Part shown: piece after piece, positions 28,213 to 35,586 of the stretch
How positions within the stretch are numbered: the first letter of the stretch is position 1
Layout of the letters: the number at the start of each line of letters is the position of its first letter
NCBI GenBank assembly: GCA_018969935.1
Contig: JAGWXJ010000003.1
Location: forward strand, 1-35,674
Length of the DNA: 35,674 nt
Direction of reading: 5' to 3'
From: Alphaproteobacteria bacterium
GTDB taxonomy: Bacteria; Pseudomonadota; Alphaproteobacteria; Micavibrionales; UBA1664
Notes under the pieces: model-generated
The model's input: only the letters and a program-made list of their open reading frames with translations
What the model was told of the DNA's origin: nothing
Databases searched by the model: none
Made by a program: the position numbers and the translations under genes

Positions 28213-29043
28213 ATGGACTCGAAGCCGTTCGACATCTGCATGCATTTCCGCGCCGCGTCTGCGCAGGTGCATGTTGTCGACCCGAAGATCGCGGGCTCTT
28301 ACGAACTGCTGGAGCAAGCGTATAACGAGATGCTTGTCACAACCTTCCCCGAGGAAGCCCCCTACGAAACGCTCGAAAAATGGCACAGGCGCCTTGAAGC
28401 CGCCGACGCTCCCTCCCGCTATATAATCGGCATCTCGGGCGAACATCTGGACAACCCGAAAAAACGCAAGCTCATGGGCCTGTTTGTCGGCATCTACTAC
28501 AAGAAGGCCGATGCGGGTGTACTGGCCTACAACATCGTAAAACCCCAGTGGCAAGGTTCGGGCTTGGGCGCGGCCCAAGTAGAAATGCGCCGCAAACTGA
28601 TGCTGGAAGCTGCAAGACAGGAAGGCAAAAAGCTCGGCGGCATCTTCGCCGAATGTAATGACCCCGCCCTGATGCCATCCTCGGAAGACGTGATGGACCC
28701 GCGCAAGCGCATCGAGATGTACGCAAAAATGGGCGGCCTTCGCGTCCCCATCAAATACAGCCTGCAACTGGGCCCCGACCCTGCCGACAAATCCGACAAA
28801 ATGATGCTGATTGCCTTCCCTCACCCCGCAACGGAGGAATATCCGCAGTACCGCTGCATCGCCGAATTCATCAGGGGGATTTATGAAGTGCGCGGCTTCG
28901 ACCCCGAAAAGCACCCCGATTTCCACCGCATGGAAAGGCAATTGCGCCGCGGCTTCCACAAAGGCAGACAGTCAACGGAAGGCTGGTTAATACCACTGGT
29001 CAACAAACAGGGTCGTTACGACCGCCACCGCTTCATCCTTTAA
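28213..29043 (+). CDS. GNAT family N-acetyltransferase
   Basis: The 276-residue protein has a GNAT fold: the acetyl-CoA pyrophosphate loop is KPQWQGSGLGAAQ (motif A, Q-x-x-G-x-G), preceded by the beta4 strand DAGVLAYNIV. It is longer than a minimal GNAT (about 150 residues) because of an N-terminal extension and a C-terminal arm ending in HRFIL. The acceptor is unknown. ATG 28213 is used; a TTG at 28177 is also possible, and neither has a Shine-Dalgarno. Its 3' end overlaps by 11 bases the convergent nitrilase-family gene. Fused GNAT-nitrilase proteins exist (YhcX type), so the pairing may be functional. Confidence 0.8.
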   Translation: MDSKPFDICMHFRAASAQVHVVDPKIAGSYELLEQAYNEMLVTTFPEEAPYETLEKWHRRLEAADAPSRYIIGISGEHLDNPKKRKLMGLFVGIYYKKADAGVLAYNIVKPQWQGSGLGAAQVEMRRKLMLEAARQEGKKLGGIFAECNDPALMPSSEDVMDPRKRIEMYAKMGGLRVPIKYSLQLGPDPADKSDKMMLIAFPHPATEEYPQYRCIAEFIRGIYEVRGFDPEKHPDFHRMERQLRRGFHKGRQSTEGWLIPLVNKQGRYDRHRFIL

Positions 29044-29977
29044 AGGCGATAATCCCGCCCGGCCACGCCTCGGCACCCTCGCGGCGCTTGCGGCGGATGG
29101 CATCAATCGGCACCGCCCCCACATGCACATCACCCGCATGAGTCATGCTCATGCCGTAGCTGGGCTCCGATTGCAAAATGATGCCGTCTACAGCCATATC
29201 CATCTCGCACGGGCCGTAAATGGCGGCACCCGCAAAATTGGTTTCGCGCCCCACAAGGTAGGGCGGCACGCCAACCCCGCCGACAGCCGCCACGCCCATC
29301 ATGCCCTCGACGGCCCGCGCGCGGCAATTCAGGAACACGCGGTTGTATCCTGATGGATGCATCGTCATGGAAGGCACTAGAAGCACCTCGATCCCCTCGT
29401 GCATCAGGGCATGCACCACAGCCGATTGCTGGACATCAAGGCATACAAGCACGCCCACCTTCACGCCGTTCAGCATGAATGACGATATTGTCTGCCCGCC
29501 CTGCATGTTGTCGCCCTGCTCGTCCAGCTCCCACGGCGTCAGCACCATCTTGTCCTGCGTCAGCACCAACGTGCCATCAGCCCCGAAGACATAGGCGCGG
29601 TTGAAATACCGCGTCAGCGCCTCGTTCTTGCGGGTGTCGTTAAACTGTTTGAAATACGGCTCCGGATACGGCTTGGGCGCCCGCACGGGATACGAGCCCG
29701 CCAGAATCGCCAACCCCGTTTTTTTGGCAACGGCGGCAACGCCAGCCAACCCCGCTTCGTTTTGTGACTCCGTCCACTCGAAGCCGTCACCCGCCTTCAG
29801 ATCCTTCGGCGCAAACTGGTACCAGTGCACGCATGCATATTCGGGCAGCACCAGAATGTCCGCATTCTGCGCCTTTGCGGCTAATGCCTTTTCTTCGAGA
29901 AGCGCAATCCACGCCTCCATCGAAGCGACGGGAAACGAAAAATCGATAGGCCAGAGGGCAACGCGGAAATCAGTCAT
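29033..29977 (-). CDS. Nitrilase-superfamily carbon-nitrogen hydrolase
   Basis: The 314-residue protein has the complete Glu-Lys-Cys triad: E46 (VLPEYA), K143 (TQDKMVL) and C179 (VCLDVQQ). It should hydrolyse an amide, carbamoyl or nitrile bond of an unknown substrate in the cytosol. Context (next to polyamine genes, with agmatine deiminase 4.6 kb away) would suggest N-carbamoylputrescine amidase. However, the nucleophile context here is CLDVQQ, not the CWDQW expected for AguB, so I do not assign that function. Start ATG at 29977; its promoter region is shared with the divergent decarboxylase leader. Confidence 0.88.
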   Translation of the reverse strand: MTDFRVALWPIDFSFPVASMEAWIALLEEKALAAKAQNADILVLPEYACVHWYQFAPKDLKAGDGFEWTESQNEAGLAGVAAVAKKTGLAILAGSYPVRAPKPYPEPYFKQFNDTRKNEALTRYFNRAYVFGADGTLVLTQDKMVLTPWELDEQGDNMQGGQTISSFMLNGVKVGVLVCLDVQQSAVVHALMHEGIEVLLVPSMTMHPSGYNRVFLNCRARAVEGMMGVAAVGGVGVPPYLVGRETNFAGAAIYGPCEMDMAVDGIILQSEPSYGMSMTHAGDVHVGAVPIDAIRRKRREGAEAWPGGIIAFKG

Positions 29978-29999: not shown

Positions 30000-30029
30000 T
30001 TGACAGGGGGTAGAAAATATTTGTATCAC
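30000..30029 (+). promoter_or_regulatory. Promoter of the polyamine decarboxylase leader
   Basis: A perfect -35 TTGACA (30000-30005) is followed after 18 bases by TATCAC (30024-30029) as a -10 candidate. Transcription would begin near 30036, giving a 5' leader of about 330 bases before the decarboxylase start at 30365. The -35 is exact; the -10 is only a moderate match. Confidence 0.55.
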
Positions 30030-30038
30030 GCCCCTAAT

Positions 30039-30057
30039 TGACTCATAATGTGAGTCA
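30039..30057. promoter_or_regulatory. Perfect 7-bp dyad at the predicted transcript start
   Basis: TGACTCA-TAATG-TGAGTCA is an exact inverted repeat with a five-base centre, immediately after the predicted transcription start. It may be an operator for a dimeric repressor or the first hairpin of the leader RNA. No terminator T-tract follows. Confidence 0.5.
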
Positions 30058-30160
30058 TCACGTACGTGCCTCTGGCCTGAAATAGTGGTTTATGTAACGG
30101 CGTAAAACTTGGGTTGAATTGGGGACCAAGCCCCACAACTTTGAATTAGGGTTTTATGTC

Positions 30161-30280
30161 ATGATCACTTTTACAACTGCCTGGGGCCACACGCCCCCCA
30201 TAGGAATGGAAATTGGTTCTTCCACTCACCTGATTGGGCACGGCGTGCTTTCGCACGCATCGACCCGTCGCAACGGATAA
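30161..30280 (+). CDS. 39-codon leader ORF in the decarboxylase 5' leader
   Basis: ATG at 30161 has AGGG at 30148-30151, nine bases upstream, and opens a 39-residue frame ending in a TAA at 30278-30280. The peptide (MITFTTAWGHTPPIGMEIG at the start, STRRNG at the end) contains four His and an Arg-Arg pair two residues before the last. Gammaproteobacterial speF genes are known to be controlled by a leader peptide (SpeFL) that stalls ribosomes with ornithine; this peptide is not similar overall but could play a like role. Translation is unproven. Confidence 0.4.
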   Translation: MITFTTAWGHTPPIGMEIGSSTHLIGHGVLSHASTRRNG

Positions 30281-30364
30281 ACGGTCAAGGCTTTAGAACT
30301 TCCGGCTTTTAATATGGCCGGGGGAACGAAGCCCTATCCGCTTTCCTCGATGGAGATGCGCACG

Positions 30365-31570
30365 ATGTCAAACATCATCACCCCCCAAAGCTTTGCCAAC
30401 CGCACGCCGCGCCAAGTGGCCCTGCCCCCTCATGCCTATACGGGCGAGGTATCGGACGTTGTGCGCCAGCTGGCCCCCGTCAACCCGCTGTACATCATGT
30501 GGCCGGAACGCATTGCCGAAGCGGCAAAACAATTCCTGACCCAATTCCCCGGCGAAACGGTTTACGCAACCAAATGCAACCCAGACAAAATCGCGATCCA
30601 GACCATGTATCGCGCTGGCGTCCGCGCATTTGATGTCGCCTCCATCGGCGAGGTCCGCCTCGTCCGCAAGCTGGCCCCCAAAGCCAAGCTGTACTTCATG
30701 CACACCATCAAGTCGCCCGAGGCGATTGCCGAGGCCTACAAGGTCCACGGCGTCCGCGCCTTCGTGCTCGACAGCATGGATGAGCTTTACAAGATCATGC
30801 GCGCAACCGAACTCGCTCAGGACCTCGAGCTGTTCGTGCGCATGGCCCTGCCGAAAAACAGCAAAGCCCAGATCGACTTCTCGACCAAATTCGGGGCCCT
30901 GCCCTACGATGCAGCAGACTTGCTTAAAGCCTGCCGCCCCGTAGCCTCGCGCCTTGGCCTCTGCCTGCACGTGGGCACCCAGTGCACCGACCCTGCCGCC
31001 TACAAGCGCGCAGTGAAAGTGGCGGCGCAAGTGCTCAAGGCATCCAAAGTATCCATCGACGTCCTCGACGTTGGCGGTGGCTTCCCCGTGGAATACCCCG
31101 GCTCCCAGCCCCTGCCCCCGTTCCAGGATTTCGTGGACACCATCACGAGCGCCCTCAAGGCCCAGAAGATGGATACCATCCCCCTCATGTGCGAACCGGG
31201 CCGCGCGCTCGTGGCCAACGCCGTATCCCTCGTGGTGCGCGTGGAAGGCCGCAAGGGCAACCTGCTGCACATCAACGACGGCACCTACGGCGGCCTCTTT
31301 GACGCGGGCGCCCAAGTGCGCGCGCGTTATGCCACCAAAGTCATCTCGCGTAACGGCACCGCCCGCCGCGAGCAGGATCTCGTCCCCTACCGTTTCGCAG
31401 GCCCTACCTGCGATTCCATCGACATGATGAAAGGGCCGTTCATGCTGCCCTCCGACATCGTGGCAGGCGACTGGATTGAAATTCAGACCATGGGCGCCTA
31501 TTCTCAGGCCCTGAGGTCGAACTTCAACGATTTCGGTCACGCCGACCAAATCGTGATGAAAAAGATTTAA
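30365..31570 (+). CDS. Fold-III ornithine/lysine-type decarboxylase
   Basis: The 401-residue enzyme is a PLP-dependent decarboxylase of the alanine-racemase fold. K70 (VYATKCNPD) binds PLP, HVGTQC and GGGFPVEYPG line the cofactor site, EPGRALV is the phosphate contact, and C349-D350 (GPTCDSIDMM) is the catalytic Cys/specificity region. It should make putrescine from ornithine (and possibly cadaverine from lysine). The start at 30365 has TGGAG (30351-30355) nine bases upstream; a longer frame from 30314 starts inside a leader hairpin and is unlikely. Carboxynorspermidine synthase follows in ten bases, so the two are an operon. Confidence 0.9.
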   Translation: MSNIITPQSFANRTPRQVALPPHAYTGEVSDVVRQLAPVNPLYIMWPERIAEAAKQFLTQFPGETVYATKCNPDKIAIQTMYRAGVRAFDVASIGEVRLVRKLAPKAKLYFMHTIKSPEAIAEAYKVHGVRAFVLDSMDELYKIMRATELAQDLELFVRMALPKNSKAQIDFSTKFGALPYDAADLLKACRPVASRLGLCLHVGTQCTDPAAYKRAVKVAAQVLKASKVSIDVLDVGGGFPVEYPGSQPLPPFQDFVDTITSALKAQKMDTIPLMCEPGRALVANAVSLVVRVEGRKGNLLHINDGTYGGLFDAGAQVRARYATKVISRNGTARREQDLVPYRFAGPTCDSIDMMKGPFMLPSDIVAGDWIEIQTMGAYSQALRSNFNDFGHADQIVMKKI

Positions 31571-31580
31571 GGAGAAAAAT

Positions 31581-32807
31581 ATGGATAGCGTACTGATTAT
31601 CGGCGCCGGCGGCGCAGGTTCGGTTGTGGCCAAAAAATGCGCCATGAACCCCGATGTGTTCAAGAAAATCCACTTGGCGTCCCGTACGCTCTCGAAGTGC
31701 GAGGCCATCGCGCGCGAGTGCAAAAGCACGGTCACGACCTCGCAGGTGGACGCCGATGACACGCAACAGGTCATCAAGCTCATCGAAAAGGTGAAGCCCG
31801 ATCTGCTCATCAACATGGCCCTGCCGTATCAGGACCTCACGATCATGGATGCGTGCTTGGCAACAGGCGTCCACTACATGGACACCGCCAACTACGAACC
31901 CAAGGACGAAGCCAAGTTTTCCTACAAATGGCAGTGGCCCTACCACGACAAGTTCAAGGAAAAAGGCATCATGGGCGTGCTCGGCTGCGGCTTTGACCCC
32001 GGCATGTCCAACATCTACTGCGCCTACGCTCAAAACCAGCTGTTCGATGAAATCCATACCATCGATATCGTCGACTGCAACGCAGGTGACCACGGCCACG
32101 CCTTTGCCACCAACTTCAACCCCGAAATCAACATCCGCGAGGTAACCCAACGCGGCAAATACTGGAAAGACGGCCAGTGGATTGAAATTGATCCGCTCTC
32201 CATCGCCTGCATGGTCGATTACCCTGAAGTCGGCCCCAAAAAGTCTTACCTGATTTATCACGAGGAAGAAGAGTCTCTGGTCAAGAACATCCGTGGCCTC
32301 AAGCAAATCCGCTTCTGGATGACCTTCTCGGATAACTACATCAAGCACCTCGATGTCCTGCAAAACGTGGGCATGACCCGCATCGACCCCGTTATTTACA
32401 ACGGCGTCGAAATCATCCCGCTGCAGTTCCTCAAGGCCCTGCTGCCCGAGCCGTCATCCTTGGCTGAAAACTACACGGGCAAAACCTCCATCGGTTGCAT
32501 CTTCGAAGGCACCAAAGGCGGTAAACCCGTTAAAAAGTTCATCTACAACGTCTGCGACCACGCCAAAACGAACACCGAACTGGGCGCACAGGCCGTGTCC
32601 TACACCACGGGCGTACCAGCAGTCACGGGCGCGATGATGATGTTCAAAGGCATCTGGAAGGGTGCGGGCGTGTTCAACGTAGAACAACTGCCGCCCGAGC
32701 CGTTCATGGAAGAAGTGGCCAAACAAGGCCTGCCGTGGCACGTCAAGGACCTCGACGCCAAAACAGAAGCCGAACTCAAAGGCGCAAAAGAACTCAAAGC
32801 CGCATAA
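31581..32807 (+). CDS. Carboxynorspermidine/carboxyspermidine synthase (saccharopine dehydrogenase family)
   Basis: The 408-residue enzyme condenses L-aspartate-beta-semialdehyde with putrescine (or diaminopropane), reducing the imine with NADPH to carboxyspermidine. It has the N-terminal Rossmann motif LIIGAGGAGSVVAKKC (residues 5-20), the VHYMDTANYEP segment and a C-terminal region matching saccharopine-dehydrogenase-like CANSDH enzymes (DVLQNVGM, TTGVPAVTGAMMMFKG). The start has AAGGAG seven bases upstream. It sits between the diamine-making decarboxylase and the partner decarboxylase nspC, the usual pathway order. A hairpin with a T-run follows. Confidence 0.92.
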   Translation: MDSVLIIGAGGAGSVVAKKCAMNPDVFKKIHLASRTLSKCEAIARECKSTVTTSQVDADDTQQVIKLIEKVKPDLLINMALPYQDLTIMDACLATGVHYMDTANYEPKDEAKFSYKWQWPYHDKFKEKGIMGVLGCGFDPGMSNIYCAYAQNQLFDEIHTIDIVDCNAGDHGHAFATNFNPEINIREVTQRGKYWKDGQWIEIDPLSIACMVDYPEVGPKKSYLIYHEEEESLVKNIRGLKQIRFWMTFSDNYIKHLDVLQNVGMTRIDPVIYNGVEIIPLQFLKALLPEPSSLAENYTGKTSIGCIFEGTKGGKPVKKFIYNVCDHAKTNTELGAQAVSYTTGVPAVTGAMMMFKGIWKGAGVFNVEQLPPEPFMEEVAKQGLPWHVKDLDAKTEAELKGAKELKAA

Positions 32808-32810
32808 GCA

Positions 32811-32839
32811 AAAATCCCCGCTACGGCGGGGATTTTTTT
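32811..32839 (+). terminator. Intrinsic terminator or attenuator between synthase and nspC
   Basis: AAAATCCCCGC-TACG-GCGGGGATTTT (32811-32836) is an 11-bp stem followed by seven T residues. By form it is a standard intrinsic terminator, yet it lies inside a pathway operon and its T-run abuts a start codon of nspC at 32840. It may reduce expression of nspC relative to the upstream genes. Confidence 0.8.
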
Positions 32840-34063
32840 ATGGCGCAAGCCCTAACCCCGCACTATCTTTTCAACATGAAAAACGCATCCCGCCTGCCAC
32901 TCGCAACCATGCACACACCCGCCTATGTCGCAGATGTGGCAGCCATCCGCCAGAACCTCGAACGTGCTGACAAAATCCGCAAAGGCGCTGGCTGCAAGGT
33001 GCTGCTGGCCACCAAGGCGTTTTCGTTTACCGCCCTCTTTCCCATGATGCGCGACTATCTGGACGGCACGACCGCCAGCGGCCTCTACGAAGCCAAAATG
33101 GGCGCTGATTACTTCGGCAAGGAAATCCACGTCTACGCCCCCGCCTACACCGATGCCGAACTGGAAGGATTGGCAAAGCTGACCGACCACATCTACGTGA
33201 ACTCCCCATCCCAGCTCGCACGCTACCTGCCCATCCTGAAGGGCAAGAAAATCGGCATCCGCATCAACCCCGAATATTCGCTCAGCACCGTCGGCGGCGA
33301 GCTTTACGACCCCTGCGCCCCCTGCTCGCGCTTCGGCACCCGCAAGGACCAGCTGGATGATTTGCCGTGGGAACACATCCACACCCTCCATGCCCACGTC
33401 CTGTGCGAAAGCCGTACCGCCGCGGGCACTATCGGCCTCATCGACACCCTCGATGAAAAATTCGGCGCCTACGTTAAACGCGTTAAAGCCGTGAACTTGG
33501 GTGGCGGGCACTTCTTCAACGATGCCGGTTTTGAAATCGAGCCACTAATCGCCCGCATCAAAGCCTTCCGCGAAAAATACGGCGTCGAAGTCATCCTCGA
33601 ACCCGGCGGTACGCTTGTGTATGATGCGGGTTATCTGGTTACATCCGTCATCGATGTCCACAAAAACGGCGATACGCAAATCGCCATCCTCGACAGCTCG
33701 GCTTCCTGCCACATGCCCGACATCATCGAAACCAACGGCGAATTCACGCCAGAAATTGTCGGCGCAACCCGCGACCTGATGGATGGCGCATACCCGCACC
33801 ACTACCTCATGGGCGGCAAAACCTGCATGACGGGCGACTTCATCGCAACCGCCTACGCCTTCAGGGAACCACTCAAAATCGGCGATAAAGTCGTCTTTTG
33901 CGACCAGATGCAATACAGCTTCGTCAAGGACACCACCTTCAACGGCACCCCGCTGCCCGATATGGCTGTCCTGCACGAAGACGGCCGCTACGAAGTAGTC
34001 CAGACTTACGGTTACGAAGACTTCCTCCGCCGCGTCGGCGGCCCCGTCAAAATATCAATGTAA
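32840..34063 (+). CDS. nspC: Carboxynorspermidine/carboxyspermidine decarboxylase
   Basis: The enzyme decarboxylates carboxyspermidine to spermidine (or the norspermidine analogue). The protein (407 residues from 32840) is a PLP fold-III decarboxylase: LLATKAFSF holds the PLP lysine, YLDGTTASGLYEAKMG is an NspC-type signature, VNLGGGHFF and LEPGGTLVYDAG contact PLP, and GKTCMTGD holds the active-site cysteine. Start choice is open. ATG 32840 has GGGG seven to eight bases upstream, but that lies in the terminator stem; 32876 and 32909 lack any ribosome-binding site. Its end overlaps by nine bases a convergent GNAT gene. Confidence 0.92.
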   Translation: MAQALTPHYLFNMKNASRLPLATMHTPAYVADVAAIRQNLERADKIRKGAGCKVLLATKAFSFTALFPMMRDYLDGTTASGLYEAKMGADYFGKEIHVYAPAYTDAELEGLAKLTDHIYVNSPSQLARYLPILKGKKIGIRINPEYSLSTVGGELYDPCAPCSRFGTRKDQLDDLPWEHIHTLHAHVLCESRTAAGTIGLIDTLDEKFGAYVKRVKAVNLGGGHFFNDAGFEIEPLIARIKAFREKYGVEVILEPGGTLVYDAGYLVTSVIDVHKNGDTQIAILDSSASCHMPDIIETNGEFTPEIVGATRDLMDGAYPHHYLMGGKTCMTGDFIATAYAFREPLKIGDKVVFCDQMQYSFVKDTTFNGTPLPDMAVLHEDGRYEVVQTYGYEDFLRRVGGPVKISM

Positions 34064-34572: not shown

Positions 34573-35586
34573 ATGACCGCACAAATAACCATCCCGCCCG
34601 AGTGGGCACCGCAAAAGGCGATCTGGACCGCATGGCCCGCCAACCGCGAGGAATGGAATGACGATCTGGATACCCCGCGCCATGACGTGGCAAACCTCAT
34701 CCGTGCGCTTGCCCCCACCAACAAGGTGATGCTGCTCGTCCATGATGCCGAGGCCGAAGCCAGCGCCAAAGCAGCCCTAGGCGATGCCGCCACCTACGTA
34801 CCCGCCAAATACGGCGACATCTGGCTACGCGATACCGGCCCTATTTTTGCCAACGGCCCAGAAAACAATCACGTGGCCCTGCGCTTCAAAACCAACAGCT
34901 GGGGCGGCAAATACGACCTGCCCGATGACGCAACGGTAGGCGACACCATCGCCAACACCGCAAACAAACCCATCAAGCCCTTCCCCTTCGTGCTCGAAGG
35001 CGGCGCGGTAGACCACGATGGCAACGGCACGGTACTGACCACCAAACAAACCCTCCTCAACCCCAACCGCAACGGCTGGACAAAGGAACAAGGCGAAGCC
35101 GCGCTGAAGGAAGCCTTGGGCGCCCGCAAGGTCATCTGGATAGACGAAGGCCTGCTGAACGACCACACCGACGGCCACATCGACAACATCGCACGCTTTG
35201 TGGCGCCGCGCCGCGTCGTCTGCCAAGCCCCCGCCGATGCCGATGACCCGAATGCGCAAACGCTCAACGCCATCGCCGCCACACTGGAAGCCGCCACCGA
35301 TGCCGACGGCAATAAACTTGATGTCATCCGCATCCCCGGCGTTGGCAAGTATGTGAACCCCGAGGGCGGTATCTCCCCCGCCTCCTACATGAACTTCATC
35401 ATCGCCAACGGCGTGGTGGTTGTGCCCGTCTACGGCACCAAAACGGAAAGCGCGGCTTTGGCAGCCCTGCAAAACGTATTCCCTGACCGCAAGGTCATCG
35501 GCGTCAACTCCCGCGGCCTTCTGGGCAGCGGCGAGATGGGCGGCGGGTCCTTCCACTGCATCACCCAACAGGAGCCTGAACTATGA
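34573..35586 (+). CDS. aguA: Agmatine deiminase
   Basis: The enzyme hydrolyses agmatine to N-carbamoylputrescine and ammonia. The 337-residue protein (penta-domain PAD fold) shows YGDIWLRDTGPIF (substrate-binding Asp), FVLEGGAVDHDGNGT, the catalytic His H202 in DHTDGHIDN and the nucleophilic C329 in GGGSFHCITQQEP near the C-terminus. Length is slightly below the usual 350-370. It needs an N-carbamoylputrescine amidase to complete putrescine formation; no clear AguB and no arginine decarboxylase are in this window. Its TGA overlaps the ATG of a downstream lipoprotein gene. Confidence 0.96.
   Translation: MTAQITIPPEWAPQKAIWTAWPANREEWNDDLDTPRHDVANLIRALAPTNKVMLLVHDAEAEASAKAALGDAATYVPAKYGDIWLRDTGPIFANGPENNHVALRFKTNSWGGKYDLPDDATVGDTIANTANKPIKPFPFVLEGGAVDHDGNGTVLTTKQTLLNPNRNGWTKEQGEAALKEALGARKVIWIDEGLLNDHTDGHIDNIARFVAPRRVVCQAPADADDPNAQTLNAIAATLEAATDADGNKLDVIRIPGVGKYVNPEGGISPASYMNFIIANGVVVVPVYGTKTESAALAALQNVFPDRKVIGVNSRGLLGSGEMGGGSFHCITQQEPEL

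Follow-up and report, generated by a model that had tools for sequence, protein, structure and literature searches.

A structured RNA element in the leaders of alphaproteobacterial ornithine decarboxylase genes, and its probable role in gating translation initiation

The window (the whole stretch of 35,674 nucleotides that was analysed) comes from a Micavibrionales genome, and the relatives compared with it carry names such as Micavibrio sp. We read it as a polyamine locus, since the ornithine decarboxylase (ODC) gene is followed by genes resembling those for carboxynorspermidine synthase and carboxynorspermidine decarboxylase (nspC), and by an agmatine deiminase gene. A route from agmatine to putrescine probably exists here as well, given the nitrilase-family gene divergent from odc and the agmatine deiminase gene. 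The ODC start was placed at 30365, the alignment to the ODC of a same-genus relative (L002) opening at residue 18 of the mechanically called reading frame. The features of the locus are as follows.

29033-29977, minus strand: nitrilase-family gene, perhaps N-carbamoylputrescine amidase, divergent from odc
30000-30029, plus strand: likely promoter (TTGACA at 30000-30005, TATCAC at 30024-30029, 18-nt spacer)
30039-30057, plus strand: predicted 5' transcript hairpin, an exact 19-nt dyad of TGACTCA (30039-30045) and TGAGTCA (30051-30057)
30058-30108, plus strand: conserved RNA core, ar45-like (ACGUACGUGCCUCUGGCC ... GGUUUAUGUAACGGCGUAAAAC), matched by model R1 with 51.3 bits, E=1.7e-11
30100-30159, plus strand: helix 30100-30110/30149-30159 that would sequester the start site, enclosing a hairpin at 30111-30141, from the minimum-energy fold
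30148-30151, plus strand: weak Shine-Dalgarno-like AGGG, seen in the sequence, for the putatively regulated start codon
30161-30280, plus strand: upstream open reading frame (uORF) of 39 codons (MITFTTAWGHTPPIGMEIGSSTHLIGHGVLSHASTRRNG), from the ORF list, opened by that AUG
30183-30197, plus strand: predicted post-AUG hairpin GGGGC-CACAC-GCCCC, from the core-constrained fold
30365-31570, plus strand: ODC of the COG0019/fold III family, from the homology start and a family scan
31581-32807, plus strand: carboxynorspermidine synthase-like gene, probably in the same operon (NF043000, E=2.7e-126, under its cut-off)
32837-34063, plus strand: carboxynorspermidine decarboxylase-like gene (nspC), probably in the same operon (TIGR01047, E=1.8e-116, just under cut-off)
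34573-35586: agmatine deiminase gene, downstream of the nspC-like gene

The original prediction for this leader had described a TTGACA promoter, a perfect TGACTCA/TGAGTCA dyad and a leader rich in hairpins, and these descriptions hold. The hexamer is present, and blocks of TTGACA/TTTACA and TTGTATC are kept in an alignment with two related leaders, L002 and L151 (the latter from another family); a generic sigma-70 scan of the window leader scored zero promoters. From the sequence, the transcript is expected to start near 30036. The dyad is exact in the window, and its letters are replaced in L002 and L151 with a stem still possible (TGGCTCATGATGAGAGTCG; CTGAGAGATAATATCCTTCAG; alignment inspected by eye). 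Because the relatives differ in sequence yet keep the potential to form the stem, the dyad behaves as an RNA hairpin and not as a DNA operator. The fold of the 361-nt leader, at -124.8 kcal/mol, was more stable than that of shuffled sequences (-104.7 +/- 5.3 kcal/mol; z = -3.8), none of 100 shuffles being as stable.

The conserved unit of the leader is an RNA element, with its core at 30058-30108 and pairing extending to about 30160, and not a peptide. Leaders of ODC orthologues have in common the motif RCGCACGUGYCKMUGGCC...GGUUAUGCAACGRCGURA, after which come a GC stem-loop, an AAGGG-like site and an AUG. Model R1, built from 20 Micavibrionales ODC leaders, had matches in 57 of the 142 Micavibrionales genomes; those in L143-L145 were set aside, as they lay inside or beside unrelated coding sequence. 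The window core is identical to that of L002 at 49 of 51 positions and to that of L151 at 48 of 51, and the stem-loop that follows is identical to that of L151 at 26 of 27 positions, whereas uORF codons 1-14 agree at only 20 of 42. The core is a near-invariant imperfect hairpin near the transcript start, with conserved internal loops. Its pairs are maintained in 92.1% of cells, as against 88.3% in shuffled alignments and 21-40% when the structure was slid along the alignment. On covariation of the stems, which had been proposed as a check, the signal is limited because the core is so strongly conserved: cells with double changes numbered 29 compared to 14.4 in shuffles, a significant excess, but one from which shuffling does not take out relatedness. 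Unguided RNAalifold analysis of 30 leaders from other orders recovered both the core stem and a helix opposing the Shine-Dalgarno region (anti-SD helix).

Membership in the Rfam speF family, which the original prediction had proposed to check, was not borne out. The RF00518 covariance model gave no match in the window up to E=1 and zero matches at the ODC leaders of L002-L017; among 55 relatives none exceeded the cut-off, the sub-threshold noise lying away from ODC leaders. At E<=1, the ar45 model (RF02347) had no match in the window or the Micavibrionales ODC leaders, and a whole-Rfam scan of the same sequences placed no family at the leader. Similarly, none of 20 representative loci from outside the Rhizobiales had an Rfam match at the element. 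The suggested kinship with speF leaders does survive in that the element is a conserved structured RNA and is related, but the related part is ar45, which lies upstream of Rfam speF. R1 landed on ar45 sites in 8 of 11 Rhizobiales speF loci (E 0.013-0.28, 127 kb searched), and the window element carries the conserved ar45 core CGCACGUGCC...GCAACGACG 5' of odc. The two thus share CGCACGUGCC..UGG / GCAACGRCG and the position before odc, whereas the window lacks the GGGCUUUUUU end of ar45 and has a start codon and a uORF after the element.

Of 289 genomes of the class, 11 had an Rfam ar45 match and 11 an Rfam speF match, 10 being common to both, and in four Rhizobiales loci that were scanned together ar45 sat 8 nt 5' of speF. 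In 10 of the 11 Rhizobiales loci (L076-L086), CUUUUUUGGU, with which ar45 ends, pairs with ACUGAAGAGG of speF in a perfect 10-bp helix that encloses a variable hairpin. The counterpart of this helix by position in other orders is UCCUUUUUGG/CCGAGAGGGA, the 3' strand of which makes up the Shine-Dalgarno region. Because the helix joins them, ar45 and speF look like halves of one element and, given also their 8-nt spacing, the two Rfam entries RF02347 and RF00518 should probably be merged. An extended speF element starting near the transcript start has already been described (Corbino 2005, PMC1273637). Like the window element, it lies 5' of an alphaproteobacterial COG0019 ODC with conservation beginning near the transcript start; the window resembles the region upstream of RF00518 and not RF00518 itself. 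We consider it likely that the stretch from 30036 to about 30200 belongs, as a divergent copy, to a single cis-regulatory RNA of Alphaproteobacteria, whose Rhizobiales form is the 5' part (Rfam ar45) of extended speF.

R1 was extended with the Rhizobiales matches to give model R2 (71 rows, some of them from ar45). R2 matched 63 of 385 alphaproteobacterial genomes and 47 of 277 genera, mostly at E<1e-6 and mostly in genomes outside the training set, bridging many genera intermediate between Micavibrionales and the ar45-bearing Rhizobiales. In 299 genomes of the phylum, matches were confined to Alphaproteobacteria, the share of this sample outside the class not being stated. Most matches (59 of 67) lie directly 5' of a COG0019 decarboxylase gene; the others precede hss-odc (2), speD-speE (1) and a class-I glutamine amidotransferase gene (1), or are unresolved (1) or at contig ends (3). 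hss is also present at 12 of the matched loci, and extra copies of the element within Micavibrionales precede speE-speD. A conserved structured leader is therefore found, as for riboswitches, before odc, hss-odc and speD-speE, genes of one pathway. The element occurs before polyamine genes across the class; Rfam recognises it in one group (Rhizobiales) alone, and there as two pieces. What the computation establishes is that the element exists, how widely it has spread, which genes it accompanies and how it relates to ar45 and speF.

The start codon and Shine-Dalgarno-like site usually lie 45-60 nt 3' of the core. Of 142 leaders, from partly redundant loci, 100 have a short ORF at the AUG that follows the element, and in 35 this AUG is the start of the decarboxylase. 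In the window, the unconstrained fold buried the AUG, whereas enforcing the core left it more open, and an analogous anti-SD helix is present in other orders and in Rhizobiales. Many leaders have a GGGCC hairpin about 15-25 nt 3' of the AUG, the 5' arm of which complements the UGGCCC of the core and its variable neighbours; in the window, this arm can instead pair with core UGGCCU (30073-30078). A post-AUG GGCC occurred in 57 of 121 leaders, compared to 20.4 +/- 3.9 expected. Examples of the pairing are UGGCCCCAU/AUGGGGCCA in L016 and GGCUCC/GGAGCC in L146. Matched core and post-AUG segments paired better than swapped ones (p = 0.0008; 0 of 5000 in an energy test), also at a second variable position with one leader per family (mean p about 0.003), in tests that hold composition constant and remove relatedness only in part. 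For the window alone the matched-pairing test was not significant (z=+0.5). In the energy model the fold that buries the AUG lies on average about 9 kcal/mol below the core-folded state, so the core perhaps does not form by itself, or else non-canonical pairs are missed by the model. Sequestration of the start site and pairing between core and start region are thus supported but not proven.

The reading we favour, and hold to be probable, is that the leader is a bistable cis-regulatory RNA that gates translation initiation, probably for polyamine feedback. The leader would switch between a core-folded state, in which the AUG is more exposed, and a more stable alternative, in which strands of the core pair with the start region and first codons and the AUG is buried. 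A polyamine-related signal, directly bound or mediated by a protein, may shift this balance and so set the rate of initiation. Control would be direct where the AUG opens the decarboxylase itself; in the window, where it opens the 39-codon uORF, control of ODC would act through translation of that uORF. We infer polyamine feedback, the direction of control and the step from uORF to ODC.

Published tests of the A. tumefaciens leader found no binding of ornithine, lysine, diaminopimelate, putrescine, cadaverine or spermidine (PMC1273637), and this negative result with six ligands leaves room for mediation by a protein. The imperfect hairpin could then be the site of a translational regulator, acting without a small-molecule ligand. 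The hairpin is short and nearly invariant with conserved internal loops, as such a site might be, and the negative ligand tests on the Agrobacterium leader (PMC1273637) point the same way; however, no candidate protein has been identified, and the element, like a riboswitch, keeps to a single metabolic theme. We judge a purely protein-binding leader unlikely. A more ambitious form of the bistable gate, which we put forward tentatively and would not back at even odds, is a polyamine riboswitch present throughout Alphaproteobacteria, of which Rfam has so far captured just two fragments, in Rhizobiales. Its expression platform would pair the aptamer with the start site and the initial codons of whichever ORF comes next, evolution having placed there the enzyme or a short uORF.

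The uORF of the original prediction is present, with its weak AGGG site, and in-frame codons 5' of its start lengthen the mechanical ORF to 53 aa. The two-codon ORF ATG TCA TGA (30156-30164) overlaps its start, and L002 has ATG TAG there. The position of the ORF is meaningful in that its start codon adjoins the element, but the peptide can be aligned with that of L002 over the first 14 codons only, where it is partly conserved. Over these codons MxTxTxAWGHTPPI is common to both, with 1, 2 and 6 changes at codon positions 1, 2 and 3. Changes within this short span fall mostly at third positions, and a modest third-position excess was seen in other close uORF pairs (about 19, 19 and 34 changes, summed by eye), whose indels mostly keep the frame. 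These two features suggest some selection on peptide or frame, and the close pairs are consistent with translation and weak peptide constraint. The AUG of the uORF is probably regulated and used.

A ribosome stalled by ornithine, arginine or a polyamine near the TRRNG-stop, re-folding the downstream hairpins in the manner of SpeFL, had been the mechanism originally envisaged. The presence of a uORF with an initiation site, and the block and codon-position pattern common to the window and L002, would suit it, and in both systems a short ORF precedes ornithine decarboxylase. However, TRRNG, the Arg-rich end, shows no conservation in a comparison of more than 100 leaders, the window lacks a conserved C-terminal arrest motif, the peptide varies from leader to leader with the RNA element conserved instead, and roughly one leader in four has this AUG as the start of the decarboxylase itself. 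The recurring WGHxPP-like block, moreover, coincides with an RNA hairpin. The weak conservation of the peptide, and the absence of conservation at its Arg-rich end, leave an ornithine-arrest peptide unsupported; we regard this mechanism as improbable and the peptide as an unlikely sensor, and under the bistable gate the peptide would mainly be a by-product of RNA pairing constraints. The decarboxylase controlled by SpeFL and the window ODC belong to different fold families. Simple coupling, with a ribosome at the uORF stop freeing the ODC ribosome-binding site, was unsupported, as the GGAG stays paired in folding. Control of the window ODC by a terminator was rejected because an intrinsic-terminator scan of the window leader found no terminator-like site between uORF and ODC. 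Terminator-like hairpins are visible by eye in L032 and L034.

It is very doubtful that the conserved 5' part acts chiefly in trans, as a small RNA whose place next to odc is incidental. In Bartonella and S. meliloti, ar45 is observed as a transcript of its own, apart from the speF leader (PMC7717549, PMC2573895), which might suggest such a role, but the linkage to polyamine genes is class-wide, a helix joins ar45 to speF, the downstream start region pairs with the element in keeping with a cis role, and the short transcript may be a terminated leader.

The polyamine theme is shared with a spermidine riboswitch that is a variant of SAM-I (PMC10853860), which is unrelated in sequence and structure; the window had no Rfam SAM match. 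Atypical B12 riboswitches with a uORF in M. tuberculosis (PMC11260477) control the downstream gene through structured RNA and uORF translation, as the window leader may, with an unrelated RNA and ligand. Since 2005 the speF leader has counted among the orphan regulatory RNAs (PMC1273637), and ar45, the small RNA next to it, is of unknown function (PMC7717549). Treating the two as one element, present in 47 of 277 sampled genera with its core and gene context conserved, provides a minimal RNA of defined extent, a wealth of natural variants and a switch that can be tested. Because the downstream polyamine genes vary (hss, speDE, carboxyspermidine route), a wider set of ligands is worth retesting, namely homospermidine, carboxyspermidine, norspermidine and agmatine.

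Some minor observations concern what follows the element in individual leaders. In L165, L168, L169 and L198, from other orders, the uORFs end in a common G-R-[EK]-N-P-L-S-S, which may point to another conserved feature, of RNA or of peptide, farther downstream. Extra copies of the element are followed by a sodium:solute symporter gene in L141, and by GNAT acetyltransferase and carboxylesterase genes in L136 and L138; these are candidate genes for polyamine uptake and acetylation. In one Micavibrionales family (L128-L132, L156, L157), the element precedes the gene for a protein of about 580-620 aa (VLMPTYSPPQGRLLSEFN...), which had no Pfam match in the member tested and is possibly a new polyamine-related enzyme.
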